Assembly: GCA_902791035.1 (NCBI GenBank)
Contig: CADAUA010000011.1
Location: 1-64,000, forward strand
Direction: 5' to 3'
DNA length: 64,000 nt
DNA from: an uncultured Coriobacteriaceae bacterium
GTDB lineage: Bacteria > Actinomycetota > Coriobacteriia > Coriobacteriales > Atopobiaceae
A program made the translations under genes and the position numbers. How positions within the stretch are numbered: the stretch's first letter is position 1; each line of letters starts with the position of its first letter. This document shows positions 538 to 14,101 of this stretch, piece by piece. The notes beneath the pieces are model-generated. The model saw only the letters and a list, made by a program, of their open reading frames with translations, ran no database searches and had not been told where the DNA came from.

Positions 538-1164
538 ATGACAACCACAGCCACATCCAACGTGCAGCGCGGCGAGTCGCGCTGGCGCTTCCCAGACAAC
601 CGCCACGGCGAGATTCGCGGCTTCAACGACGTGGGCGTAAGGACCTTCGACGCAAACACGATAAGCTCGGTCGTGCGCGAGAGCATCCAGAACAGCCTGG
701 ACGCCGCCCTCGACCGCACCGGCACGGCTCCCGTCCGCGTGGAGTTCGAGCTCTTCTCCATGGACGGCGCGGACGTGCCGGACTCCGAGCGGCTCTACGT
801 GAGCCTCTTGGCCTGTCAGGACTTCTGCAGCTCAGACAGGCAGGCAGACAAGTTCTTCTCGCATGCGGCGGACCACATCGAAGGTAGGATCCCGGTACTG
901 CGCATCTCCGACCACGGCACGACCGGCCTCCGCGGCGCGGCCAGCGGCGAGACCTCCACCGACTGGAGCCGCCTGGTCAAGGAGAGCGGCTCCTCCAGCA
1001 AGGACGACTTCTTGAGCGATAGCACTGAGAAGCCCGACATTAGCGTAGTCGACAGTACCGACGGTACAGCACTCCCCCTAAGCCCATGTCACCGCTCAGC
1101 TCAGCACCTCAATGACACTACACTGCATTTCCACCGGACAGCCAATCTCTCAGCTGGGATATGA
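538..1164 (+). pseudogene. GHKL-type ATPase, truncated after the first ATP-binding motifs
   Basis: The protein from ATG 538 carries an N-box (RESIQNSLDA, about residues 42-51) and a G1-box-like LRISDHGTTGLRG (about 121-133), the Bergerat-fold signature of GHKL ATPases. About residue 160 (near base 1010), after GSSSKDD, the family resemblance stops. Intact relatives continue with a glycine-rich lid (the G2 box), and here unrelated sequence runs to a stop at 1164. The protein therefore lacks half of its nucleotide pocket and all downstream domains. The frame overlaps the start of the helicase gene by four bases. It was probably once the partner of that helicase in a defence-type locus. The start has only a weak AGG upstream. 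Confidence 0.6.
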
Positions 1165-3980
1165 TGCAAAACATGATAGATACGAGCGTACATATAACCA
1201 AGTTGGCTGGATCCCCAGAGCCTTCCTCTGCACCCCGAGAGGACGGCCTGGATCCATCCCTTCCTCCGCACGTACGGCGCGACCTCGCCCTCTTCCGCGA
1301 GAAGGTCTATGCCGAGATGTACGCCCTCAAAGATAGGGGCGGCCGCAAGCATCGCATCACCAACGGCGAGCGCATCAAGGCCATGGGTGGCGGCACCATC
1401 TACACCTTCGACCTCGAATCGGAGCTCTTCCTTGCCGAGGACTCGCCTGTGTCCCTCACCGTAGGCGAGAAGGCTGTCAAGGGTAGTGTGTTCGCCTGCG
1501 AGGAGTTCAAGATCACGCTCCTGTTGGCACGCGACATGGGCGAGCGCATAACCTCGGCCTTCATCAGCGCAGAACCATGGCAGCTACTGGAGAGCCTTGG
1601 CGAGCACCTCTCGCTAATGAATCCCACTGATCACCAGCTTGCCGTCAAACTCATGGACGAAGGCCCGCGCCTGGCCACGCAAAGAAGGATCGGCGAGGTC
1701 GCCCGAGGCCAGACCGTCGCGAAGCAACACGTACGCGAGAACCCAATCACGGTCATATGGGGACCGCCCGGCACAGGTAAGACCCATACCATGGCTGAGG
1801 TTGCCATCGAGTGCATCACCCAGGGCAAGACGGTACTCGTGGTCTCCCACAGCAACATTTCCGTCGACGGTGTCGCGGCCAAGGTTGCCGAGATCATGCG
1901 CAAAGAGGGAATGGAGACTCTGCTTGAGAGAGGGCAGGTCATACGCTTCGGTCGCGTGAGGGATCAAGGCCTCACACAGGATGAGGACGTGGTCTCCTAC
2001 CTCCAGGCCCTCAATGCATCGCCAGACCTCAAGAAGGAAATGGATGACCTCTACACAGAGCGCCGGCGTTTGGACCGCTCTGGGTCGCGGGATTCCGACT
2101 CAGACCCCAAAATGACGGAACGGCAACGCCGCGAAAGGCTCGTGGAGATCCAGCAGAGGCTCAAGGCAATTCGGTCCCTCGTTGCAGCTAACGAGACCTA
2201 TGTGGTCAAGCACGCCCGACTTCTGGCCACCACCGTTTCCAAGCTCTACGCTAACAGCATGTTTGACATCCGCAAGTTTGACGTGGTGATGTTCGACGAG
2301 ATAAGCATGGCCCTGATACCCCAGGTCCTGTGCGCCGCCATGTATGCACGCAACAAGCTCGTGCTCGTGGGCGATTTCCGCCAGTTGGCACCCATTGTGC
2401 AGAGTGAGGCCGCTAGACCGACCCTCTCGCGCGACCTCTTCTCGTACCTCAAAATCGTTGACAGCCGGCAGCAAGCCTACTATCACCCTTGGCTCGTCAT
2501 GCTCAATGAGCAGCGACGCATGCACCCAGCAATCGCAGCGTTTCCAAACAAGGAGTACTACGGCAGCCTCCTAGCCAACCACGAGTCCGTTGTCCATGGC
2601 AGGGACCGCATAGCCAATGCCGCGCCTTGTCCAGCCAGCCCAGTGGTCCTTGTCAATCTCCGCGGTGCCTATTGCCCTTCGGCAAGCAACGCCGATCACT
2701 CCAGGTTCAACATACTCAGTGGCATCACCTCGTTTGGGTTGGCCGTCACAGCCTTTAGGGACGGCACCAACTCGATAGGCATCATCACGCCCTATGTAGC
2801 CCAAGCACAGCTGGTGCGTGCCCTCTTGCGCGATTACGTCGACAAGCTCGGCAAGAAAGACTACGAGCATGCGCAGGCAATCGCCTGCTCCACTGTTCAC
2901 CAGTTCCAGGGCTCGGAACGTGATGCCATCATCCTCGACACGGTGGAGAGCTATCCTGCCGCAAAGCCGGGGATTCTTACCTCGAAGAACGTGAACGGCC
3001 AAGTAGACCGTCTCATCAACGTGGCAGTCACTCGTGCCCGTGGCAAGCTCATAACCGTGGCAAACAAGGACTTCTGGGAGTCGGCAGCCCCAGAGGGCAA
3101 CGCCTTCGCAGAGCTGCTGAAGCATGAGAGGGTAAATGACAAGTACATCGGGCCGGTACACGGGCAGAGCGCCGAATTCCTGAAGTCGCTTGACCTGGGC
3201 CCTAACCTAGAGCTCATGGATGAGAACAGCGCCACGGACATGCTCATCAAGGACATCAACAGGACCTCGCAGCGGGTTGTCCTCTCCATCCCAGATGGCA
3301 AGCTCCTGGAGCCGTATGCCTCGCGCATCTGCGATGCCATACGCCGCGCCCGTAGCCGCGGGCTAACGGTTCTTATCAAGTGTTACAACAGCAAGGCTTT
3401 ACCCGATGACTGGAAGGGTCTGGCCTGGAAGTCGGAGGACGCCATCTTCCCTCTCGTGGTTCTCGATGGGACCATCTGCTGGTATGGCATGCCTCCCTCT
3501 CGCCTGAGGCCCACCACCAACGCGAGCTATGCGCCGGCCACCACAGTCAGGACGCCTATTAGAATCACCGGACGCCATACGGTAGACATGATCTGGTCTC
3601 TGACCGGACTTGAGTCACGCAAGTCGGATGGCAACGCACAACTGCTGCGCGAGCGTCGGGGCAGCACGGCAGACGACGAGAGCGGCTCGAAGGCCTACGG
3701 CTTGGCAAGGTACATCAAGGAGCACAAGAAGTGCCCCAAGTGCGGTGCGGAGATGCGGCTCACGAAGAGCTACACCAAGGGCTCCTACTACCTGCGCTGC
3801 ACAAAGGACAAGACCCACATCGACTATCTGCGAGCCGATGATGTCAATCACTACTTCGTCGTATCCCAGGCAAGGTGTCCTCAGTGCGGCGCCACGATGC
3901 AGGCGCGGCTGGGTAGGTATGGCGTCTATATCACATGCGACGGGCCTGCGCAGCACAACGTGAAACCGAATGAGGTGTAG
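1161..3980 (+). CDS. Upf1/Dna2-like SF1 helicase with PLD-like tail and zinc ribbons
   Basis: This 939-residue superfamily 1 helicase shows Walker A WGPPGTGKT near residue 200, Walker B MFDEIS near 378, motif III LVGDFRQLAP, motif V HQFQGSERD near 578 and motif VI VAVTRARG near 622. These are COG1112-type features of RNA/DNA helicases. Residues about 690-800 resemble a phospholipase-D-like nuclease fold, but I see no intact HxK(x4)D motif, so catalysis is doubtful. Two C-terminal CxxC zinc ribbons (from about 857 and 911) resemble topoisomerase-I fingers. Helicase plus PLD in one chain is the architecture described for type II Mokosh anti-phage proteins. That link is inferred from family knowledge. 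The base composition is less GC-rich than the later genes, which suggests transfer. The start is uncertain because no good ribosome site precedes ATG 1161 or 1173. Confidence 0.8.
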   Translation: MMQNMIDTSVHITKLAGSPEPSSAPREDGLDPSLPPHVRRDLALFREKVYAEMYALKDRGGRKHRITNGERIKAMGGGTIYTFDLESELFLAEDSPVSLTVGEKAVKGSVFACEEFKITLLLARDMGERITSAFISAEPWQLLESLGEHLSLMNPTDHQLAVKLMDEGPRLATQRRIGEVARGQTVAKQHVRENPITVIWGPPGTGKTHTMAEVAIECITQGKTVLVVSHSNISVDGVAAKVAEIMRKEGMETLLERGQVIRFGRVRDQGLTQDEDVVSYLQALNASPDLKKEMDDLYTERRRLDRSGSRDSDSDPKMTERQRRERLVEIQQRLKAIRSLVAANETYVVKHARLLATTVSKLYANSMFDIRKFDVVMFDEISMALIPQVLCAAMYARNKLVLVGDFRQLAPIVQSEAARPTLSRDLFSYLKIVDSRQQAYYHPWLVMLNEQRRMHPAIAAFPNKEYYGSLLANHESVVHGRDRIANAAPCPASPVVLVNLRGAYCPSASNADHSRFNILSGITSFGLAVTAFRDGTNSIGIITPYVAQAQLVRALLRDYVDKLGKKDYEHAQAIACSTVHQFQGSERDAIILDTVESYPAAKPGILTSKNVNGQVDRLINVAVTRARGKLITVANKDFWESAAPEGNAFAELLKHERVNDKYIGPVHGQSAEFLKSLDLGPNLELMDENSATDMLIKDINRTSQRVVLSIPDGKLLEPYASRICDAIRRARSRGLTVLIKCYNSKALPDDWKGLAWKSEDAIFPLVVLDGTICWYGMPPSRLRPTTNASYAPATTVRTPIRITGRHTVDMIWSLTGLESRKSDGNAQLLRERRGSTADDESGSKAYGLARYIKEHKKCPKCGAEMRLTKSYTKGSYYLRCTKDKTHIDYLRADDVNHYFVVSQARCPQCGATMQARLGRYGVYITCDGPAQHNVKPNEV

Positions 3981-4093: not shown

Positions 4094-4429
4094 ATGGACT
4101 TCCCCACCGCACAGACCAAGGCCCTCTCCTTCCGCCACGAGCGCGACTGGGAGCAGTTCCACAACCCCAAGGACCTGGCCATATCCATCAGCCTGGAGGC
4201 CGCCGAGCTCCTCGAGTGCTTCCAGTGGTCCGGCACGGCCACGGACGTCCCCGCCCGTCACCAGGAGATGTGCGACGAGCTGGCCGACGTCCTTATCTAC
4301 TGCATCTACCTGGCCGACGAGCTGGGCGTGAGCATCCCGGAGGCCATCTCCGCAAAGATCGACCAAGACGCGCTAAAGTACCCCGTAAGCAAGGCCCGCG
4401 GCAACTCAAGGAAGTACACGGAGCTGTGA
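4094..4429 (+). CDS. MazG-like nucleotide pyrophosphohydrolase
   Basis: This 111-residue protein belongs to the all-alpha NTP-pyrophosphatase superfamily (short MazG / RS21-C6 type). It should cleave nucleoside triphosphates to monophosphates and pyrophosphate. The metal-binding pattern is present as EAAELLECFQW (about residues 35-45) followed by EMCDELADVLIY (about 57-69), giving the ExxE...ExxD arrangement. The ATG at 4094 sits six bases behind GAGG, and a TATAAC box lies at 4047-4052. Its stop codon overlaps the GTG start of the next gene (GTGA), so the two are translationally coupled. MazG-like proteins often occur in phages and defence islands, and the partner here supports such a role. 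Confidence 0.85.
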   Translation: MDFPTAQTKALSFRHERDWEQFHNPKDLAISISLEAAELLECFQWSGTATDVPARHQEMCDELADVLIYCIYLADELGVSIPEAISAKIDQDALKYPVSKARGNSRKYTEL

Positions 4430-6114
4430 AGGTCATCCCCACACAGTCGGCACCCACGCCACCGCACGGCAGCCAGTTCGTCGTGGACAGCTGTCCCTTC
4501 CATCCTGGCGCCGACGGCTCCATCGATCCCTCGCTCCTCCACATCAAGGAGTCCCGCCTCTACGACTGGCCCATGGTCTATATCCTGGCCAACTCCTCCG
4601 AGGCATACGTGGGCCAGACCACCAGCATCGTGCGCCGCATGCACCAGCATGGCGACAACCCCGAGAAGCGGGCCTTCACCCGGGCGAACGTCATCTACAA
4701 CGCCGAGGCAAACATGTCCGTGATCACGGACTACGAGTCCCGCCTCATCCAGCTCATGCACGCCGACGGCAAATTCACCCTCACGAACAAGAACGAGGGC
4801 ATTTCCGACTCCAACTACTTCTCCAAGCACCAATACGACGACATGTTCGAGGAGCTCTGGACGGAGTTGCGCGCGATGGACCTCGCCAAGTCCACCATCG
4901 CCGAGCTGGAGGAGACCGAGGTCTTCAAGTACTCGCCCTACAAGGGTCTCAACGAGGACCAGAAGGACGCCTTCTGGAAGATCCAGACCGCTATCCGCGA
5001 CGCGCGCGAGGAGCCCATCGTGGTGGAGGGCATGCCCGGCACGGGAAAGACGGTACTCGCCGTCTACCTGCTCAAGGCCCTGCGTGACGACGAGCGCTTC
5101 AGGGATAAGAACATCCGTATCGTGGAGCCCATGCCCGCGCTGCGCAAGACCCTGCAAAACTCCCTCAAGGGCGTAAAGAACCTGAGCAAAGACGACGTCA
5201 TCGGCCCCGGCGACGTGGCAAAGGCACGCTACACGGGCGGTAAGGCACACAAACCCTTTGATATCCTGCTGGTAGACGAGGCGCACCGCCTCAAGCAGTA
5301 CAAGACCATCGTAAATCGCGACAGCTTCATCAAGACCACCAACGCGCTGGGCATGAGTGTGGAGGACGGCGTTACCCAGCTGGACTGGATCCTCAAACAA
5401 GCCAAGGTACCGGTGCTCTTCTACGACCCCATGCAGGTAGTAGGCCCCTCCGGCATCAGCCCGAGCATCATGCGCGACCGCCTGTGCGATGCCTTCGAAC
5501 ACCCCATCCGCCTGGAGAGCCAGATGCGCGTGAAGGGCGGCAAGCGCTACCTGGACTACGTGGCCGATGTGCTCTGGGGACGGGCCAGCAAACGCCAAGA
5601 CTTCGGCGGCTACGAGTTTAGGCTGCACGACGACTTTCACGAGTTCTGTCGTAGCTTCGACGAGCACCTGGCTGACCACGACCTCACCCGCATGGTGGCC
5701 GGCTTCGCATGGCCTTGGGCCTCCAAGAAAGACAAGTCTATCTACGACATTGCCATCGACGGCATACCCATCCGCTGGAACACCACCACGACCAACTGGG
5801 TGGGCAGGGGCCTGAGTGACCCGACCGTGGCGCACGAGATGGGCGTCATCCACACCATCCAGGGCTACGACCTCAGCTACGCTTACGTGGTCATCGGTCC
5901 CGACCTGCGCTACGACAAGGCCCACCGGCGCGTGGTCGTGGACCGCGGCAGCTACTACGACAGGAACGGCAAGCAGGGCGCTTCGGATCGGGAGCTGGAC
6001 GAGTACGTCAAGCACGTGTACTACGTGCTTCTGACCCGTGGCATCCAGGGTACGCACGTCTACGCGTGCGACGCGGCCATGCGCGAGTACTTGTCGCGAT
6101 TTATGGGGCGATAG
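4426..6114 (+). CDS. GIY-YIG nuclease fused to DUF2075 (Schlafen-3-like) helicase
   Basis: The 562-residue protein starts at GTG 4426, inside the stop codon of the MazG gene. The reading frame is open further upstream, but only as a shadow of mazG. Residues about 50-125 look like a GIY-YIG nuclease domain (VYILANSS...AYVGQT...RRMHQH). A DUF2075 P-loop domain follows, with Walker A EGMPGTGKTV (about 201-210), Walker B LLVDEAHRL (about 281-289) and a late IHTIQGYD helicase-like motif. DUF2075 proteins are predicted nucleic-acid helicases. Fusion with a nuclease fits cleavage of foreign or damaged nucleic acid. A second DUF2075 protein with a different nuclease domain lies at 11766-13655. Confidence 0.85.
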   Translation: MKVIPTQSAPTPPHGSQFVVDSCPFHPGADGSIDPSLLHIKESRLYDWPMVYILANSSEAYVGQTTSIVRRMHQHGDNPEKRAFTRANVIYNAEANMSVITDYESRLIQLMHADGKFTLTNKNEGISDSNYFSKHQYDDMFEELWTELRAMDLAKSTIAELEETEVFKYSPYKGLNEDQKDAFWKIQTAIRDAREEPIVVEGMPGTGKTVLAVYLLKALRDDERFRDKNIRIVEPMPALRKTLQNSLKGVKNLSKDDVIGPGDVAKARYTGGKAHKPFDILLVDEAHRLKQYKTIVNRDSFIKTTNALGMSVEDGVTQLDWILKQAKVPVLFYDPMQVVGPSGISPSIMRDRLCDAFEHPIRLESQMRVKGGKRYLDYVADVLWGRASKRQDFGGYEFRLHDDFHEFCRSFDEHLADHDLTRMVAGFAWPWASKKDKSIYDIAIDGIPIRWNTTTTNWVGRGLSDPTVAHEMGVIHTIQGYDLSYAYVVIGPDLRYDKAHRRVVVDRGSYYDRNGKQGASDRELDEYVKHVYYVLLTRGIQGTHVYACDAAMREYLSRFMGR

Positions 6115-6559: not shown

Positions 6560-6625
6560 CGGCCGAGCGCCACCGCGCCTCGGCCGTACGGCCTATCATG
6601 CTTGCTACTCATATCTGCGCGGTAG

Positions 6626-6655
6626 CACCTGCAAGTGACATGTCACTTGCAGGTG
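6626..6655. repeat. 30-bp perfect palindrome, family A copy 1
   Basis: The half-site CACCTGCAAGTGACA is followed by its exact reverse complement. About 10 bp downstream lies TTGATTGCAAGTTGTATAAC and then TGCAGGTAG, a segment that recurs after other copies. It sits in the 3' region of the DUF4143 ATPase gene, in the AT-richer gap. Confidence 0.9.
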
Positions 6656-6761
6656 GGTGGCAGTTGATTGCAAGTTGTATAACTGCAGGTAGTTGTGACA
6701 GCGACTCGCCCTTGTCAACGGAAAAAGCCACCAGCAGCTGCTCCCCACCCGCGGCCACCCG

Positions 6762-8069
6762 TCACGCCCAGTTGCACGTGCTCCCCACGGCCCAGAGCGG
6801 CACGTTGCGCATCCAGCCCTGGTCCCTAAAGCCGGAGAGGCTGAGGCGCCGGGCCTTCATCCCCTCGTAGCGGTCGCAGAAGGCGCGCAGGCTCTTCGCC
6901 CGCAGGTTCTCCTCCGCCTTGACCTCTATGGGATAGACCTTCCCCTCGCGCTGCACGATAAAGTCCACCTCGCCAGACGAGTTCTCTGCCGACCAGTAGA
7001 AGGGCTCGGCACCGCATGCGCCCACAAGCTCCTGGCACACGTACTGCTCCGTGAGGGCGCCCTTGAACTCCGTGAACACGCCATTGCCCTCAAGCACCAC
7101 ACGCGGATCCAGGCCGCTCATGGCGCCGAGGAGCCCCACATCTACGAGAAAGACCTTGAACGACTTGCCGTCATCGTATGCCGAGAGGGGCATGCCGGGC
7201 TTGGCTACGCGATGTACGCGACGGACGAGTCCCGCACCCTCGAGCCAGGCCAGGCACTCGTCGAAGTCGCTCGCCCGTGCGCCAGCGCGCACCTGGCCAA
7301 ACACGAACTTCTTGTTCTCGCGCGAGAGGTGGCCTGGGATGGACTCCCATACGAGCATGGTACGAGGCAGGAGACGGGCTGGGATATGCTTGGCGAAGTC
7401 CCGCGCATAGCCGCCCAGGATCTCCTCTTGGACCTGCCTTGCCGCGAGAAAGTCGCCCCCCTCCGCCGCCGCAAAGGCCTTCACCGCTTCTGGCATCCCT
7501 CCGACCACATAGTACTGCTTGAGAAGGTCCGCCAGCTTCTGGCCAAAGGGCCCCATGAGGGACTCATCGCCAGAAGAAACGAGGTCTGCGAAGCGCCCGT
7601 TTCCCGTGGCACGCAGGAACTCCTGGAAGGTGAGGGGGTACAGGTCCAGCATGTTGACCTTGCCCACCGGAAAGCCCGACCCCCCGCTCGCAGATATTCC
7701 CAGCAGCGACCCCGCCGCCGCAACCGCATACTGGGGCGCGTCCTCGCAGAAGTACTTGAGGGAGGTGATGGCACGCGGGCAGGTCTGTATCTCATCGAGG
7801 ATTATGAGCGTGGAATCGGGACTGACGTCCACATCCAGCAGGAGTCCGAGCGAGGCGGCTATTCGCTTGAGGTCGAAGTCCGGCTCAAAGAGGCTTCGAG
7901 CCGTGGCATTGTTGTCGAGGGAGACATAGGCCACGTTGGCGAAGCACCGCCTGCCAAACTCCTTGAGAAGCCACGTCTTGCCCACCTGGCGGGCACCGTT
8001 GAGAATCAGCGGCTTGCGCCGGGGGCTGTCCTTCCACTCGAACAAGCGCGCCATGAGGTCTCGTTCCAT
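6762..8069 (-). CDS. AAA_14 / DUF4143 family ATPase (first copy)
   Basis: The 435-residue protein is a COG1373-type ATPase. Walker A NGARQVGKTWL lies near residues 20-30 and Walker B LIILDEIQTC near 88-97. The C-terminal DUF4143 part carries EVDFIVQREG...IEVKAEE, a PD-(D/E)XK-like nuclease core. The length is normal for the family. The ATG at 8069 has a strong GGAGG six bases upstream. Members are common in gut bacteria and are suspected to be selfish or defence-related, but their biochemical role is unsettled. An AT-rich leader with the palindrome ACGTAATTACGT (8123-8134) precedes the gene and may hold its promoter or operator. Confidence 0.9.
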   Translation of the reverse strand: MERDLMARLFEWKDSPRRKPLILNGARQVGKTWLLKEFGRRCFANVAYVSLDNNATARSLFEPDFDLKRIAASLGLLLDVDVSPDSTLIILDEIQTCPRAITSLKYFCEDAPQYAVAAAGSLLGISASGGSGFPVGKVNMLDLYPLTFQEFLRATGNGRFADLVSSGDESLMGPFGQKLADLLKQYYVVGGMPEAVKAFAAAEGGDFLAARQVQEEILGGYARDFAKHIPARLLPRTMLVWESIPGHLSRENKKFVFGQVRAGARASDFDECLAWLEGAGLVRRVHRVAKPGMPLSAYDDGKSFKVFLVDVGLLGAMSGLDPRVVLEGNGVFTEFKGALTEQYVCQELVGACGAEPFYWSAENSSGEVDFIVQREGKVYPIEVKAEENLRAKSLRAFCDRYEGMKARRLSLSGFRDQGWMRNVPLWAVGSTCNWA

Positions 8070-8122
8070 GGGTTGCCTCCTTTTTTACGTACTTATTTTT
8101 GTTGTATTCTACATTTTTATGG

Positions 8123-8134
8123 ACGTAATTACGT
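8123..8134. promoter_or_regulatory. Palindrome ACGTAATTACGT upstream of the DUF4143 gene
   Basis: This 12-bp perfect palindrome lies in the AT-rich leader about 55 bases before the ATG at 8069. The position suits an operator. No regulator is known, and no -35/-10 pair with standard spacing is convincing. Confidence 0.35.
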
Positions 8135-8198
8135 GTTCAATCGCATTTAATCGGTGGGTACGCACAGTCATCAGGCACTCTCGGGCTCTGCGCGGTGG

Positions 8199-8331
8199 CA
8201 CCTGCAAATGACATGTCATTTGCAGGTGGGCTGCAATTGGTTGCAAATCACATAATCTCAGGTAGACGCGCTGCCAGCAAGTCCTTGTCTCCCTCCGTAG
8301 GCACCTGCAACTGACATGTCATTTGCAGGTG
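8199..8331. repeat. Paired palindromes, family A copies 2 and 3
   Basis: Copy 2 (8199-8228) is a perfect 30-bp palindrome with half-site CACCTGCAAATGACA. Copy 3 (8302-8331) is the same apart from one base. Compared with copy 1, G:C in the stem is replaced by A:T on both arms, a compensatory change. Between the two lies the core TTGGTTGCAAATCACATAAT followed by CTCAGGTAG. The unit fills the gap between two DUF4143 genes. Confidence 0.85.
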
Positions 8332-8384
8332 CCCGTCGACCGCAGGTACCCGACACCTCGATCCAAGAGGGCTCGCCCCCTTGG

Positions 8385-9653
8385 TCACGGTGCCAGGCAT
8401 GCAAGCGGCACGACCAACACCCCGTCATCCCGCTCATAGGCAGCCTGGGTGCCCGTGAGCACCATGAGGAAGGATGGCGCACCCATCTTTGCCTGGTCGA
8501 TGCGGTTGGCCAAGGTCCTCAGGTCGTCCGCCGCATCATCGACCTTAGAGCCTCCAAGCTTTACCTCTATGGGCGCCCACCTGCCATCGGGCAGCACCAC
8601 CACGGCATCGGCCTCCAGGCCCGTCTTGTCGCGATAGTGATAGACGCGCCCGCCTAGAGGCGCCGCGTACACGCGCAGGTCACGAACGCACATGGACTCG
8701 AACATGAGGCCAAAGGTCTCGAAGTCAAACAGGAGCTTCTCCGGCGTTGCGCCGAGCACGGCCGCCGCTATGGATGGATCCGTGAAGTGCCTGGTCGGCG
8801 ACGTCCGCACCGCCGTCTTGGAGCGCAGACTCGGGTTCCATGCCTCCAGGTCTTCTACCACATACGTGCGCGCAAGCGCATCGACGTAGTCCGCGACGGT
8901 CGGCATGGATGGCGGCTCCCCCTCCATGTCGGCCGCGATGGTGGTGAGCGGGGCCTCCGTGGACACGTTTCGCGCATAGGAACGCATGATGAGGCGCAGC
9001 CAAGTGGCATTGCGGCGCTTGTCGCCCAGCTGGTCTATGTCGGAGTCCAGGAGTTCGCGAACGTAGTTCTGCGCCTGCGCAAGGGAGACATCGGCATCGG
9101 AGGCGGCGACGGCCTCGGGCCAGCCACCCCGACAGAGCAGCCGCGCATAGTCCTCGACGTCCTTTGTTGCTATGGCCCCAATGTCGCGCTGGCCGTCAAA
9201 GAGCGCGGCGAGCGAGACCTCCCCCGAGGAATCACCGGATTCGTAGAGCGACATGGTGTGCATCTCCAGGCGGGCGATGCGCCCCACGCCCGAATGCGAT
9301 GGGGCCGCACCTGGGGTCGACGAGCCCGTAAGGATGAACCGCCCCCTACCGGTTCCCCGGTCCACGGCAAACCTCACCGCATCCCAGAGTTGGGGTGCCA
9401 TCTGCCACTCGTCGATGAGCCGTGGCTCAGCTCCCGCGAGAAGAACGGAGGGCTTGGTGTCGGCAAGTCCCAGGAGCGTCTGGCGCTTGTCGGGATCCTG
9501 CATGTAGATTGCGCTTGCAGCCCGATGCTCCGCCGTTGCCGTCTTTCCGCACCATTTGGGGCCCTTGATGAGAATCGCGCCCGAGGTCCTCAGCAGCTGA
9601 GCGAGCTGACGGTCCGCAACTCGCGGCAGGTAATCCTTCTCGTCGAGCTTCAT
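8385..9653 (-). CDS. AAA_14 / DUF4143 family ATPase (second copy)
   Basis: This is a 422-residue paralogue-type ATPase with Walker A KGPKWCGKTAT, Walker B RLIDEWQ and a C-terminal EADAVVVLPDG...IEVKLGG nuclease-like core. I place the start at ATG 9653, six bases behind GGAGG, and not at the GTG ten codons earlier, which has no ribosome site. It lies in the same direction as the first DUF4143 gene, but the two are not close in sequence, so they probably arrived separately. A TACAAT box lies about 80 bases upstream on the minus strand. The cellular role is unknown. Confidence 0.88.
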   Translation of the reverse strand: MKLDEKDYLPRVADRQLAQLLRTSGAILIKGPKWCGKTATAEHRAASAIYMQDPDKRQTLLGLADTKPSVLLAGAEPRLIDEWQMAPQLWDAVRFAVDRGTGRGRFILTGSSTPGAAPSHSGVGRIARLEMHTMSLYESGDSSGEVSLAALFDGQRDIGAIATKDVEDYARLLCRGGWPEAVAASDADVSLAQAQNYVRELLDSDIDQLGDKRRNATWLRLIMRSYARNVSTEAPLTTIAADMEGEPPSMPTVADYVDALARTYVVEDLEAWNPSLRSKTAVRTSPTRHFTDPSIAAAVLGATPEKLLFDFETFGLMFESMCVRDLRVYAAPLGGRVYHYRDKTGLEADAVVVLPDGRWAPIEVKLGGSKVDDAADDLRTLANRIDQAKMGAPSFLMVLTGTQAAYERDDGVLVVPLACLAP

Positions 9654-9891
9654 GCGCGCCTCCAGGCCGATTGGCGCGGGCACCGCGAAGGTTCCGTTCG
9701 ACGCGATGTCCTCCCTGAAACCATAGTGTTATTGTACCTGATAGGCTGTGGTGCTTTGTGAGTTGGACCAATTATGTTTTACGAGTTGGCTGATTTGTGT
9801 TTATGGTTTTGGACTGTTCTTGTTTTGCGTGTTGGCTGGGGCATCTCGCATCGCTCCTCGCCCGATCACCTGCCACACACCGCTCCCCACG

Positions 9892-10069
9892 GCCCAGAGC
9901 GGCACGTTGCGCATCCAGCCCTGGTCCCGGAAGCCGGAGAGGCTGAAGCGCCGGGCCTCCATCCCCTCGTAGCGGCCGCAGAACGCGCGCAGGCTCTTCG
10001 CCCGCAGGTTCGCAGGTTCAGGCCGCTCATGGCGCCAAGGAGCCTCACGTCCGCGAGAAAGGCCTTGAG
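9892..10069 (-). pseudogene. Relic of a third DUF4143 ATPase gene
   Basis: Bases 9892-10012 repeat almost exactly the 3' end of the ATPase gene at 6780-6908. Bases 10014-10069 then match 7111-7166 of that gene. The roughly 200 bp between are missing. The fragment therefore encodes two separated pieces of the DUF4143 C-terminus and no ATPase domain. It is a decayed duplicate of the first ATPase gene or of a close relative. Confidence 0.85.
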
Positions 10070-10133
10070 TAACCCCCGTTCGCTGAAGTGATCAAGTGGG
10101 TAGACTCTTCCCAAACAAAGGAAGGATGTCCTC

Positions 10134-10399
10134 ATGCCCGTCCTCAGCAAGTTCTACGGAATCATCGTCCGCATGTATCGCGAACTCTACGAAAGCACAA
10201 TCCGCCGCATATCCACGCAGAATACTCTGGCCAGGAAGTCGTCGTGGCACTAGACGGCACCGTACTCGAAGGGGAGATCCCGCGAAACAAGATGAAGCTC
10301 CTGTTGGCATGGATGGAAATCCATCATGACGAACTTGGGGCAAATTGGAAACTCCTCAGCGACGGCGACCAGTTCTTCCGTATCGCACCGCTTCAGTAG
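10134..10399 (+). pseudogene. DUF4160 protein, frameshifted
   Basis: ATG 10134 opens MPVLSKFYGIIVRMYRELYE, the typical N-terminus of DUF4160 proteins. The conserved continuation KHNPPHIHAEYSGQE is in another frame, entered near base 10190 at GAAAGC, where one A appears to be missing. The whole region is 266 bases, one short of 89 codons, which agrees with a single-base deletion. DUF4160 genes are often followed by DUF2442 genes and the pair is discussed as toxin-antitoxin-like. Either the gene is inactive, or a slip on the A run restores it, or the base was lost in sequencing. Confidence 0.75.
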
Positions 10400-10409
10400 G
10401 GAGTACCTC

Positions 10410-10670
10410 ATGTTGCAGCCAAGCATCGTATCCGTTACTCCCCTTGCCAATACGCGCCTTCTGCTCGAATACGCAGATGGCCAGAAGAAGATATTCGACG
10501 TTAGCCCCTACACTGGGGGTCCTTGGTATGGCGAGCTCAAGAACGTGAGCTACTTCAATTCCGTACGCCTACTTGAAGGGGGCAGCGGAATCGAGTGGCC
10601 CCATGGCCAGGACATATCTCCCCACGAGCTCTACGAACAAGGAGAGCCAGTTGATGCCGCGGCTGGTTAA
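10410..10670 (+). CDS. DUF2442 protein (partner of DUF4160)
   Basis: This 86-residue protein has the DUF2442 pattern: V-x-P-L-x-x-x-x-L-x-x-x-Y-x-D-G followed by F-D-V-S-P and a late IEWPHGQDISPHELYE. The start lies 10 bases after the stop of the frameshifted DUF4160 gene, and GGGAG lies just upstream. As the likely antitoxin-like partner it remains intact while its neighbour is broken. The function is inferred only from the pairing. Confidence 0.8.
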   Translation: MLQPSIVSVTPLANTRLLLEYADGQKKIFDVSPYTGGPWYGELKNVSYFNSVRLLEGGSGIEWPHGQDISPHELYEQGEPVDAAAG

Positions 10671-10703
10671 GCGCCAACCACGGCAGCACTTGCAAGTGGC
10701 AGG

Positions 10704-10733
10704 CACCCGCAAGTGACATGTCACCTGCGGGTG
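10704..10733. repeat. 30-bp palindrome, family A copy 4
   Basis: The arms start CACCCGCAAGTGACA and end with CCTGCGGGTG. The change of CCTGC to CCCGC in one arm is matched by GCGGG in the other, so pairing is kept. A short CACTTGCAAGTG palindrome lies just upstream at 10687. Confidence 0.85.
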
Positions 10734-10841
10734 CCTCGCCTGCTCGCGCGCACGTCGCAACTTGCTCCCAATGCGCCTCCCATGTGACACGGGACCCGAA
10801 CCCATCACGGGGCTAGGCACGCCAGCAGCACGACCAGTCCC

Positions 10842-11246
10842 CTACCACTCGAAGGTCCAGCCAGGCTTCCCGGCGAGCGAGGCAAACGTGGCCTTGCCAT
10901 GCTCCAGGTAGAGCACGGCGGTGTTGTCGTCGTTCTCGTCGTACATCCTGCGAAGGCCCGGGTTGGCGTCGAGCATGGCCTTCTTTGCGGCCACGGAGTC
11001 GTCGTTCACCAGGGTGCCTGCCACGCGCAGCCAGTCCGCACCCACACAGGCCTCCAGCTCCACCTTGGGGTTGGCCATGACCTGCTTGAAGACGTCCTTG
11101 CTCTTGCCGGTCTGGATGTAGAGCTTGCCGTCAATCATCTCGGCCGTGCCGAAGGGGCGAACACGGGGCTGGTCGCCGTCCATCGTGGCAAGGTGGTAGG
11201 TCTTGGCCTGGTGAAGGAAGTCGCGTACGTCCTGAAGGGTTGCCAT
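10842..11246 (-). CDS. Pyridoxamine 5'-phosphate oxidase-like FMN-binding protein
   Basis: This 134-residue protein has the split-barrel flavin-binding fold. Features are YHLATMDGDQPRVRPFG near the N-terminus, then TGKSKDVFKQVMANPKVEL and a closing FASLAGKPGWTFEW. These are typical of the small PPOX-like group that includes putative nitroreductase or nitroimidazole-resistance-like proteins. It probably binds FMN or F420 and reduces small substrates in the cytoplasm. True PLP synthesis is unlikely because PdxH is longer. The ATG has GAGGA a few bases upstream. It is a single-gene unit. Confidence 0.85.
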   Translation of the reverse strand: MATLQDVRDFLHQAKTYHLATMDGDQPRVRPFGTAEMIDGKLYIQTGKSKDVFKQVMANPKVELEACVGADWLRVAGTLVNDDSVAAKKAMLDANPGLRRMYDENDDNTAVLYLEHGKATFASLAGKPGWTFEW

Positions 11247-11431
11247 GGGTCCTCGCTCTCTTGGGGTCTGTCCTATCTGGCCTATGCCCCATGGGAAGGG
11301 CGTCTATTCAGAGACGGCGGCGGACGGCGGGACCTTCTTTGCGAATCGCACCTGGCGTCCCGCGATGACTCCTCGGGCGCGGCCAAGGGCCAGGCCTGAC
11401 ACCTGGATTGGCTTCGTGGTCACCTAGTCCC

Positions 11432-11530
11432 ATGCTGAACGGCCTTGACGTGCTGATCGGGTCCAGCCTTCGCCGCCAGGGCATCGAGTACAAGGAGAAG
11501 CTCAACGAGTACCGCGCCCGCAAGCAGTAG
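11432..11530 (+). other. Possible 32-codon open frame or 3' gene relic
   Basis: ATG 11432 opens a 32-residue frame ending IEYKEKLNEYRARKQ, which looks like the charged helix at the end of a real protein. No ribosome site precedes it. It is best read as the tail of a lost gene. Confidence 0.25.
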
Positions 11531-11600
11531 GCACCAGGCACCAGGCGCCGCCAGAGGACGCACAGCAGTTGCCGGGCGCTCTCGAGCCCTGTGCGGCAGG

Positions 11601-11748
11601 CACCTGCAAGTGACATGTCACTTGCAGGTGGGTGGCCATCGGGTGGCCGTTGATTCAATGTCATATAGCCGCAGCTAGATTGCGTGGTGCCTCGTCCTTA
11701 TTCCCGACCACGGGCACCTGCAAGTGACATGTCACTTGCAGGTGCCCG
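11601..11748. repeat. Paired palindromes, family A copies 5 and 6
   Basis: Copy 5 (11601-11630) equals copy 1. Copy 6 is extended to a 38-bp perfect palindrome (11711-11748) by CGGG/CCCG flanks. Between them lies TTGATTCAATGTCATATAGC followed by CGCAGCTAG, the same core as in the 8199-8331 pair. The unit lies just past the 3' end of the DUF2075 gene. Confidence 0.85.
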
Positions 11749-11765
11749 CGAAGGCCCACCGTCCC

Positions 11766-13655
11766 CTACTCCCCGTACGCCGCATCGAAGTCGCGCGCCC
11801 GCTCGCGCAGGTAGGCGGCCAGCGGCGCATCCGTGCAGTAGACGTAGCAGCCCTTCATGCCGCGGGTCATGAGCGTGCGGTAGGTGTTGCGGATTATCTG
11901 GTCGGCGACCTTGTCGGCCTGGGCCGGGTCCTTCTTGCGGAGGGTCTTGTAGCCCGCGAGGGACTTGTCGGTCTTGGCGCGCTTGGTTGGATCGGTGATG
12001 ACGCAGCCACCCTCGAGGCGCAGGTCGTCGCCCACGATCACGCCCACGTAGTCGAACTCCAGGCCCTGGACCGTGTGGATGCAACCGGCCTCCTCGATCG
12101 AGTCGTCGTCGATGGCAAAGAGCGTGCTGTTGTACCTGAGGTTCCAGCTGATGCCCCAGTCGCCAATCTGGATGTCGTGCGCCAGGGAGTCGTTGTTGGT
12201 CTCTTCCGGCCAGTCCCAGCAGTAGCCTGCGACCAGACGGGCCTTGTTGCGGTCGTTGCGCGCGCGGATGGCAGCCTGCAGCGCGGCCGGGTCGTCGAAG
12301 ACGCGGAAGTCGTAGCCCGAGCCCTCGAGGCTCCAGTTTGCCGTCTCGCGGATGCCCAGCGTGTTGTCCAGCCAGGCCAAGTAGCCGTCCGAACCGTTGC
12401 AGCGGAACTGGGAGGTCAGCTCGTCCTCATAGACCTTGGCACCCAGGCGCTTGGCATAATGTTTGATGCTCTCCACCGTGCCGGCGTCCTTGAAGGTCAC
12501 CCGCTGGCTCTCGTCGATGAAGAAGACCGAGCACCGCGCGGCGTTGATGATCGTCGCAATCTGGACCACGTCACCCTTCTGTGTGAAGTCCCTCTGGACC
12601 AAGCGGTGCGCCTCGTCCACGAGGAGCGTGTCGTACTCGTTCCTAGCCACCCCGTCAAATACCGCGGAACTCCGGAAGAGAAGGTCGACTTCCCTCTTCT
12701 TGCGTCCCTCCCCCTTGAGCTCCGTGCGGTAGACGTCTCTGGGCGCGCTATTCTTGGTCACATAGGCCGTGGTCTGGGCCTCGCCGGTAAGGTTGGCCAG
12801 CAGGTTCATCGCCACCACGGACTTGCCGGTACCCGGACCGCCCTTGACGATGTAGACGACCTTCCTGTCGTGCTGCTTGGCCTGGCGTGCCAGGTAGAGC
12901 GCCCGCTCGTAGACGACCTTCTGGTCGTCGATGAGCACGAACTCGGGATTTCCGGCAAGTAGGGACGGCAACTCGTCCTGCAGGCTCTTGGAGGGGCGGA
13001 TCTTGCCGCAGTCTATGTCGTCGAGCACCGCGCCCTTGTCGCCGCGTTTGATGTGCTGCCCAATGAAGTCTGCAACCTTCCTCACCTCGTGCTTGCCGTA
13101 GAGGGGCGCGAGTTGCAGGTACTCCTCGTATTCGGGAGCCTCGAGCGCGCAGGTGCCGTCGATCTCGTAGTTGTGGGCGTAGGCGCAGGGGTGCAGGCCC
13201 ACCTGGCGGTCCTGCACGGTGGCGTTGAAGTTGCTGATGCAGGCGGCGTAGGACCAGGCCTGGTAGGAGGGGTGGGTCACGGTACGGTAGGCACCGCCGG
13301 TGTAGGTCCGCACCAGACCGCTCGTGCCGGGGACAGCCTGGGCCTTGGACCACTGCTTGAGCTCGACCACGTCCGCGTGGGGCGCGCCCTGGATATCGTA
13401 GCCAGACACGATGAAGTCCACCCGCTTGCTCGTGAGCGGAATGTTGTACTCGATGGCGATGCCGCAGTCGTCGGGTACGCCCGAGAGCTCCAGGGCGTCC
13501 TTCATGTAGGGCATGGAGTTCTCCCAGGAGCGGTACTCGGACTCCTGCGTGGTGCGGTGCATCTTCTGCGCGATGACGGCCTTGACCTTGTCGGCCAGGC
13601 GCTGCTCGAGGACGTCCTGCACGAACTGGCCCTTGGTGCCCCTGTATACGAGCAT
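11766..13655 (-). CDS. PD-(D/E)XK nuclease fused to DUF2075 helicase
   Basis: I take the start at ATG 13655 behind AGGAGGG, giving 629 residues. Longer frames upstream are not supported. Residues about 60-100 hold KRVDFIVSG...VVELKQW, the D...(E)xK core of a restriction-like nuclease. The DUF2075 domain follows, with Walker A KGGPGTGKSV (about 271-280), Walker B LLVDEAHRL (about 344-352) and IHTVQGLEFD near the C-terminus. DUF2075 is a Schlafen-group-3-like helicase family. It resembles the GIY-YIG/DUF2075 protein at 4426-6114 in the helicase half but uses another nuclease fold. The role is inferred to be nucleic-acid processing or defence. Confidence 0.88.
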   Translation of the reverse strand: MLVYRGTKGQFVQDVLEQRLADKVKAVIAQKMHRTTQESEYRSWENSMPYMKDALELSGVPDDCGIAIEYNIPLTSKRVDFIVSGYDIQGAPHADVVELKQWSKAQAVPGTSGLVRTYTGGAYRTVTHPSYQAWSYAACISNFNATVQDRQVGLHPCAYAHNYEIDGTCALEAPEYEEYLQLAPLYGKHEVRKVADFIGQHIKRGDKGAVLDDIDCGKIRPSKSLQDELPSLLAGNPEFVLIDDQKVVYERALYLARQAKQHDRKVVYIVKGGPGTGKSVVAMNLLANLTGEAQTTAYVTKNSAPRDVYRTELKGEGRKKREVDLLFRSSAVFDGVARNEYDTLLVDEAHRLVQRDFTQKGDVVQIATIINAARCSVFFIDESQRVTFKDAGTVESIKHYAKRLGAKVYEDELTSQFRCNGSDGYLAWLDNTLGIRETANWSLEGSGYDFRVFDDPAALQAAIRARNDRNKARLVAGYCWDWPEETNNDSLAHDIQIGDWGISWNLRYNSTLFAIDDDSIEEAGCIHTVQGLEFDYVGVIVGDDLRLEGGCVITDPTKRAKTDKSLAGYKTLRKKDPAQADKVADQIIRNTYRTLMTRGMKGCYVYCTDAPLAAYLRERARDFDAAYGE

Positions 13656-14101
13656 GGCGGTCGCCCTCCTGGTGGGTTGGTGGGTGTTGGTGGCTATTGT
13701 AGGCCCGGCGGGCGGAAGGAGGCACTCCTCGGGGATGCCCCCGGCGGGCGGAAGGGGCGCTTCCCCCAGTGCCCGGCAGGCGCGAGGGCTGGTCGAAGCA
13801 GAAGAAGTGGCAGAAATGACGTCAAATCCGAACTTTTCGGTGTCCATGAGTCCATCTACGGAGGCCGGCCTGCAGCATAACCCGGGTTGTGGGGCGGTTT
13901 CCTTGCCTGTAGTCTGAGCTCGAGGTGGCATTGGCCGGAGGCGACACCGAAAAGTTCGAATTTGACGTCGTTTCGAGCCGATCCTCTACTTCAAGCCCCT
14001 CTAGCCACGGCGCTGGGCCTGCCGGAACCTCGTCCAGTCCATCCCCTACGCAAGGCAAAGGTGCATAATCGCACCGTCTACCCAAGCGAGAGGAGCGCGC
14101 C
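13656..14101. repeat. 446-bp gap with a direct repeat and a TIR element
   Basis: Bases 13704-13719 and 13740-13755 share CCCGGCGGGCGGAAGG. The inverted-repeat element described at 13791-13996 fills most of the rest. A promoter for the methyltransferase gene must lie after 13996, but no clear boxes stand out. Confidence 0.6.
13791..13996. mobile_element. 206-bp element with 54-nt imperfect inverted repeats, family B copy 1
   Basis: The left arm (13791-13844) and right arm (13943-13996) are inverted copies. Their inner ends are nearly perfect: GACGTCAAATCCGAACTT on the left and GACACCGAAAAGTTCGAATT on the right. About 98 bases lie between the arms and include CTGCAG, and no gene is present. 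A second copy lies at 19298-19492. Size, arms and lack of coding sequence fit a MITE-like element or a very long hairpin. Confidence 0.75.

Follow-up and report, generated by a model that had tools for sequence, protein, structure and literature searches.

Defence by nucleotide depletion is known from dCTP deaminases and dGTPases, in which a dNTP-acting enzyme is the effector, as is considered here for MazG. AbiO and Nhi are single-gene systems that are not known to include GIY-YIG or MazG. DefensePredictor places MazG among predicted, unvalidated defence domains (PMC13092281), and the helicase family PF09848 (DUF2075, now named 'SLFN-g3_helicase') is counted among Abi protein families (PMC10121019). 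DCTPP1 prefers dCTP and 5-modified dCTP; the human enzyme has a Km of 85 µM for 5-methyl-dCTP against 152 µM for dCTP, and mouse RS21-C6 has a Km of 48.5 µM for 5-methyl-dCTP (PMC4491611). Here, a locus joining a MazG gene to a nuclease–helicase gene was analysed within a window of 64,000 nucleotides, the whole stretch of DNA examined, from an uncultured Coriobacteriaceae bacterium. Given adjacency across phyla, intact active-site residues in both proteins, and defence-rich neighbourhoods, all read from sequence, these neighbouring genes, which stay paired in distantly related microbes, likely form a two-gene defence against phages and plasmids.

The first gene (4094..4429, forward strand) encodes a 111-aa, all-alpha, MazG-like NTP pyrophosphohydrolase of the dCTPP1 type, identified through PF12643, phmmer, and AlphaFold/Foldseek. 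The second (4426..6114, forward strand), which begins with GTG, encodes a 562-aa protein that combines a GIY-YIG nuclease with an SLFN-g3 (DUF2075) SF1 helicase, as identified by profiles and AlphaFold/Foldseek. The sequence-only reading had proposed this arrangement, MazG followed by a GIY-YIG/DUF2075 helicase with overlapping stop and start codons, and profiles, conserved residues, and structure models bear out both identities; the GTGA overlap is present in the sequence as 4 nt at 4426..4429 on the forward strand. A 4-nt overlap is by itself ordinary in bacterial operons.

In the helicase, PF09848 matches residues 198–549 with E=2.5e-57 and 195 bits against a cut-off of 24. Within the SLFN-g3 core (4918..6111, forward strand), Walker A (GMPGTGKT; K208, T209), Walker B (DE, 284–285), and motif VI (R538) are present and invariant. 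The GIY-YIG catalytic domain (residues ~48–159; 4567..4902, forward strand) scored 21.4 bits in the window protein, just below the PF01541 cut-off of 22.6, and PF01541 was recognised in 47 of 50 relatives; its residues Y52, Y61, G63, R71, H75, E104, and N121 are invariant in all 50 sequences. Across the same 50 helicases, every catalytic position checked is invariant, save for the motif V Gln, which is substituted twice. The AlphaFold model is confident (pLDDT 92.6), and its first Foldseek match is human SLFN11 (7zel, E=8.7e-11), with UPF1 and RecD close behind. Because these two score nearly like SLFN11, the SLFN link rests on Pfam and fold together. A profile search found no match to the Schlafen core (SLFN-box) RNase in the window helicase, whose N-terminus is GIY-YIG, so that the protein is not a Schlafen proper.

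To evaluate the pairing, the genome collection was scanned, which yielded at least 512 helicase relatives, and the best 80 were taken as loci. GIY-YIG is present in all 80, and in 69 of them MazG directly neighbours the helicase in the same orientation, upstream in 35 and downstream in 34; in the remainder, MazG is on the opposite strand in two and absent nearby in nine. This adjacency frequency far exceeds chance. The 80 loci span Actinomycetota, Bacillota, candidate-phyla bacteria, and others, so the conserved neighbourhood that the sequence-only reading suggested looking for extends well beyond this genome. An upstream MazG dominates in Actinomycetota and candidate-phyla bacteria, and a MazG lying a few nucleotides downstream dominates in Lachnospiraceae. 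Within L028–L042, 12 actinobacterial loci have a complete MazG upstream; nine of these share the exact 4-nt overlap, and one overlaps by 7 nt. A chance overlap or an annotation artefact was considered and rejected on the basis of the adjacency conserved in 69/80 loci. That the two proteins are made together, as had also been claimed, holds for the overlap seen here and fails as a general rule, given that the order is swapped in half of the loci, the genes stand tail to tail in relatives L150–L153, and 9/80 helicases have no MazG beside them. Because of these order swaps and tail-to-tail pairs, what holds generally is co-localisation rather than translational coupling.

The association also holds when MazG is taken as the starting point. 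Across 140 genomes of the host family, 28 MazGs of the window type were found, and a DUF2075 helicase adjoins 22 of them, some tail to tail; in a second family (that of G430), the corresponding figure is 24 of 33 MazG loci. Occurrence is patchy (20/140 host-family genomes), plasmid copies occur in Bacillota and in the archaeon Halalkalicoccus, and MazG lies nearby in all four phage-collection records that carry the helicase. Distances among the MazGs correlate with those among the helicases (r=0.695, 0/2000 permutations), a value that still includes species relatedness. MazG subfamilies are also swapped (L045, L069), and no MazG–helicase gene fusion was present in any locus examined. Two decayed versions were observed: L006 retains only a MazG remnant ahead of an intact helicase, and L019 retains the start of MazG and the end of the helicase after an apparent internal deletion.

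The nuclease domain is less constant than the partnership. MazG is also retained where the DUF2075 helicase carries a PD-(D/E)XK-like region in place of GIY-YIG (L018, L112, L114, L115, L119–L121, L123, L207, L218, and others), a domain assigned from its E...D...ELKQW pattern and a match to PADLOC PDC-S41 rather than from a Pfam nuclease match. Because these versions also pair with MazG, the nuclease can be exchanged without breaking the helicase–MazG partnership. The window itself encodes a second SLFN-g3/DUF2075 protein (11766..13931, reverse strand; PF09848 E=1e-95) whose N-terminal region is PD-(D/E)XK-like instead of GIY-YIG; it matches PDC-S41 (E=1.8e-16) and carries RVDFIVSGYD...VVELKQW in its translation. 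No second MazG was found elsewhere in the window, including beside this gene. A 37-nt palindromic repeat (GCACCTGCAAGTGACATGTCACTTGCAGGTG...) occurs six times in the interval that separates the two DUF2075 genes (6625–11750), at spacings of 0.1–2.4 kb. Two AAA_14/DUF4143 ATPase genes lie next to each other at 6762–8069 and 8385–9683, and a 130-nt piece of the former is repeated at 9882–10011 (95% identical), which points to a decayed third copy. Additionally, seven candidate-phyla GIY-YIG–SLFN helicases (L093, L095, L096, L099, L103, L105, and L107), each with MazG directly upstream, carry a C-terminal, LexA/UmuD-like Peptidase_S24 domain in which the Cys-Gly site, the GDSM serine, and the VTIK lysine, and hence the Ser/Lys dyad, are conserved. 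By analogy with LexA and UmuD, this fusion suggests that such helicases may be gated by DNA damage through RecA/ssDNA.

The surroundings of the pair are rich in defence genes. With PADLOC at 1e-20, 110 randomly sampled neighbour proteins matched 83 families, including type IV restriction, AbiEi/AbiEii, type I methylase, RmrA, and PDC candidates, with at least eight different defence proteins among the matches listed (25 families). The 110 control proteins matched four families, all with housekeeping homologues. Fisher's test gives p ~0.007 for 8 versus 0, with control regions drawn from the same two families and two others, so that taxonomic matching is partial. Since defence islands gather unrelated genes, this enrichment is circumstantial. 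In the window, an SF1 helicase gene resembling Mokosh MkoA/MkoC (1161..3980, forward strand) belongs to the island context and lies outside the pair; it has C-terminal zinc ribbons, AAA_11/AAA_12/Zn_ribbon_Top1 domains, and PADLOC matches to MkoA (E=1.4e-52) and MkoC (1.6e-25, reaching residue 740). A fragment matching PDC-M33A (508–1164) also lies in the neighbourhood. Beside the pair in Lachnospiraceae (L049, L057, L064, L072, and others) stands a recurrent cluster of HNH_4, PLD-helicase-DUF3427 (type IV restriction-like), NUDIX (PDC-S07), and small methyltransferase genes, which is possibly a separate defence system. HNH_4 occurs near the pair in 20/80 loci and was considered as a third core gene. 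This was rejected, because only 7 of the 30 HNH_4 loci fetched contain MazG and the helicase; HNH_4 therefore belongs to the neighbouring type IV helicase/NUDIX/methylase system.

Our preferred reading, whose chances we judge to be about even, is a mobile two-gene defence module in which attack by the nuclease–helicase is combined with MazG acting on dCTP-type nucleotides. The SLFN-type helicase would load onto abnormal or replicating nucleic acid (phage or plasmid DNA, ssDNA, or stalled forks), which its fused nuclease, of the GIY-YIG kind here and PD-(D/E)XK-like in sister systems, would then cut. In the same infected cell, MazG would convert dCTP-type nucleotides to NMP and PPi, which could, through nucleotide depletion, limit both DNA synthesis and the mending of DNA under attack, remove 5-modified dCTP, or both. 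The abortive-infection role that the sequence-only reading proposed for the pair is hypothetical. MazG would act as an enzymatic partner rather than as an obligatory antitoxin, and the LexA/UmuD-like domain on the helicase of some candidate-phyla versions would add gating by DNA damage.

The window MazG matches PF12643 (E=4.5e-22) in a profile search and PF03819 only below threshold; phmmer retrieves mouse dCTPP1 (E=2e-20), and the closest solved relatives are the mouse and human dCTP pyrophosphatases. Its confident AlphaFold model (pLDDT 90.2) best matches mouse dCTPase with dCMP or 5-Me-dCMP (6sqy/6sqw; TM ~0.75, rmsd ~2 Å). The protein has the all-alpha NTP-PPase fold, and its four metal-binding acids (E35, E38, E62, and D65) are conserved across 76–78 sequences with no more than one exception. 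Seven of the eight DCTPP1 pocket residues listed in PMC4491611 have a counterpart, the exception being His38; W19, W45, and Y69 are present in the base pocket, and A10 occupies the H38-equivalent position. W45 and Y69 vary in some helicase-partner MazGs, and position 92 is D in the window protein versus N in 74 of 77 relatives. The window MazG is specifically dCTP-pyrophosphatase-like, a nucleotide specificity inferred by homology, and removal of modified dCTP therefore has to be weighed seriously against depletion of nucleotides in general. In such a modified-base defence, to which we assign a small but appreciable probability, the nuclease–helicase would prefer modified or unusual DNA, and MazG would destroy 5-modified dCTP, thereby keeping it out of host DNA and starving phages that make it. 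That the closest solved relatives are dCTPP1 enzymes, the human one having a lower Km for 5-methyl-dCTP than for dCTP (PMC4491611), is consistent with this, as are a SauUSI-like PLD-helicase-DUF3427 gene (PADLOC mREase_IV) within ~6 kb in 17/80 loci, a NUDIX gene in 12/80, and an MrcB_N reader gene that adjoins MazG on a Priestia plasmid. However, the type IV restriction-like neighbours occur mostly within a single bacterial group and the window has none, the GIY-YIG–DUF2075 protein has no known modified-base reader domain, the base pocket is altered in some partner MazGs, and helicases persist without MazG. Decidedly unlikely is a more elaborate version, in which MazG would be a nucleotide-pool immunity factor that destroys modified dCTP and so prevents the base licensing the nuclease–helicase from entering host DNA; it would be a metabolite-level counterpart of a restriction–modification methylase, with RecA/S24 gating in candidate-phyla versions.

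A chromosomal module for repair of DNA damage or replication stress, in which a helicase and a UvrC-like GIY-YIG nuclease would be joined by nucleotide sanitation, would account for the S24 fusions in seven candidate-phyla loci, for the likeness of the helicase to SLFN11, and for MazG as a pool-cleaning enzyme with a classical anti-mutator function. We consider it unlikely, as patchy distribution, copies on plasmids and phage contigs, defence-gene neighbours, and decayed loci (L006 and L019, for example) all argue against a non-defensive role. Very improbable is a toxin–antitoxin-like pair with a toxic nuclease–helicase and MazG as its obligatory antidote, even though tight two-gene linkage in any orientation recalls addiction modules. 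Four helicase-bearing genomes lack any MazG that fits this profile, and three such helicases (L036, L037, and L040) are full-length with intact GIY-YIG motifs; this speaks against MazG as an obligatory antitoxin, and the strict model was rejected. Together with the 9/80 helicases that lack an adjacent MazG, these genomes indicate that MazG is dispensable at least sometimes. That the linkage reflects mere defence-island drift with no joint function is scarcely credible: defence genes do cluster non-randomly in islands, but in two families roughly three in four MazGs stand beside a DUF2075 helicase, the pairing crosses phyla and tolerates a swapped order, and the remaining neighbours recur, if at all, within a single bacterial group.

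If the defence reading is correct, the pair would represent a widespread, unnamed two-gene immune system in which a bacterial counterpart of the Schlafen helicase is joined by a nucleotide-pool enzyme. Such a system would offer a tractable model for human SLFN11-type helicases at the interface of virus infection and replication stress, and would make the predicted role of MazG in defence directly testable. The sequence-only reading knew of no named system of this composition, and the searches concur: neither PADLOC nor NCBIfam holds a model covering the pair, and no paper describing MazG with DUF2075/GIY-YIG was found in the searchable literature. The text of the DefensePredictor paper (PMC13092281), which includes MazG, names neither DUF2075 nor GIY-YIG, nor the composition of that system. 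PADLOC profiles for AbiO and Nhi match the window helicase weakly (E ~1e-7 to 1e-8) and not over their full length, since only residues 158–299 (~120–140 residues, the ATPase core) align. The dCTP deaminase and dGTPase defences differ from MazG in enzyme fold and reaction and are not known to have a nuclease–helicase partner. For DCTPP1 (RS21-C6) of mouse and human, residues E63, E66, E95, and D98, together with W47, W73, and Y102, all have equivalents in the window MazG; in contrast to DCTPP1, the window protein lacks an H38 equivalent (A10), and its gene shares an operon with a helicase. With SLFN11 and the group III Schlafens, the window helicase has the SLFN-g3 Pfam family in common, and both are nuclease–helicase fusions, with an overall TM of only ~0.36 to SLFN11 and similar likeness to other SF1 helicases (UPF1, RecD). 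The two part at the nuclease, which is a Schlafen core RNase in SLFN11 and a GIY-YIG domain here, and in the MazG partner encoded beside the bacterial protein.
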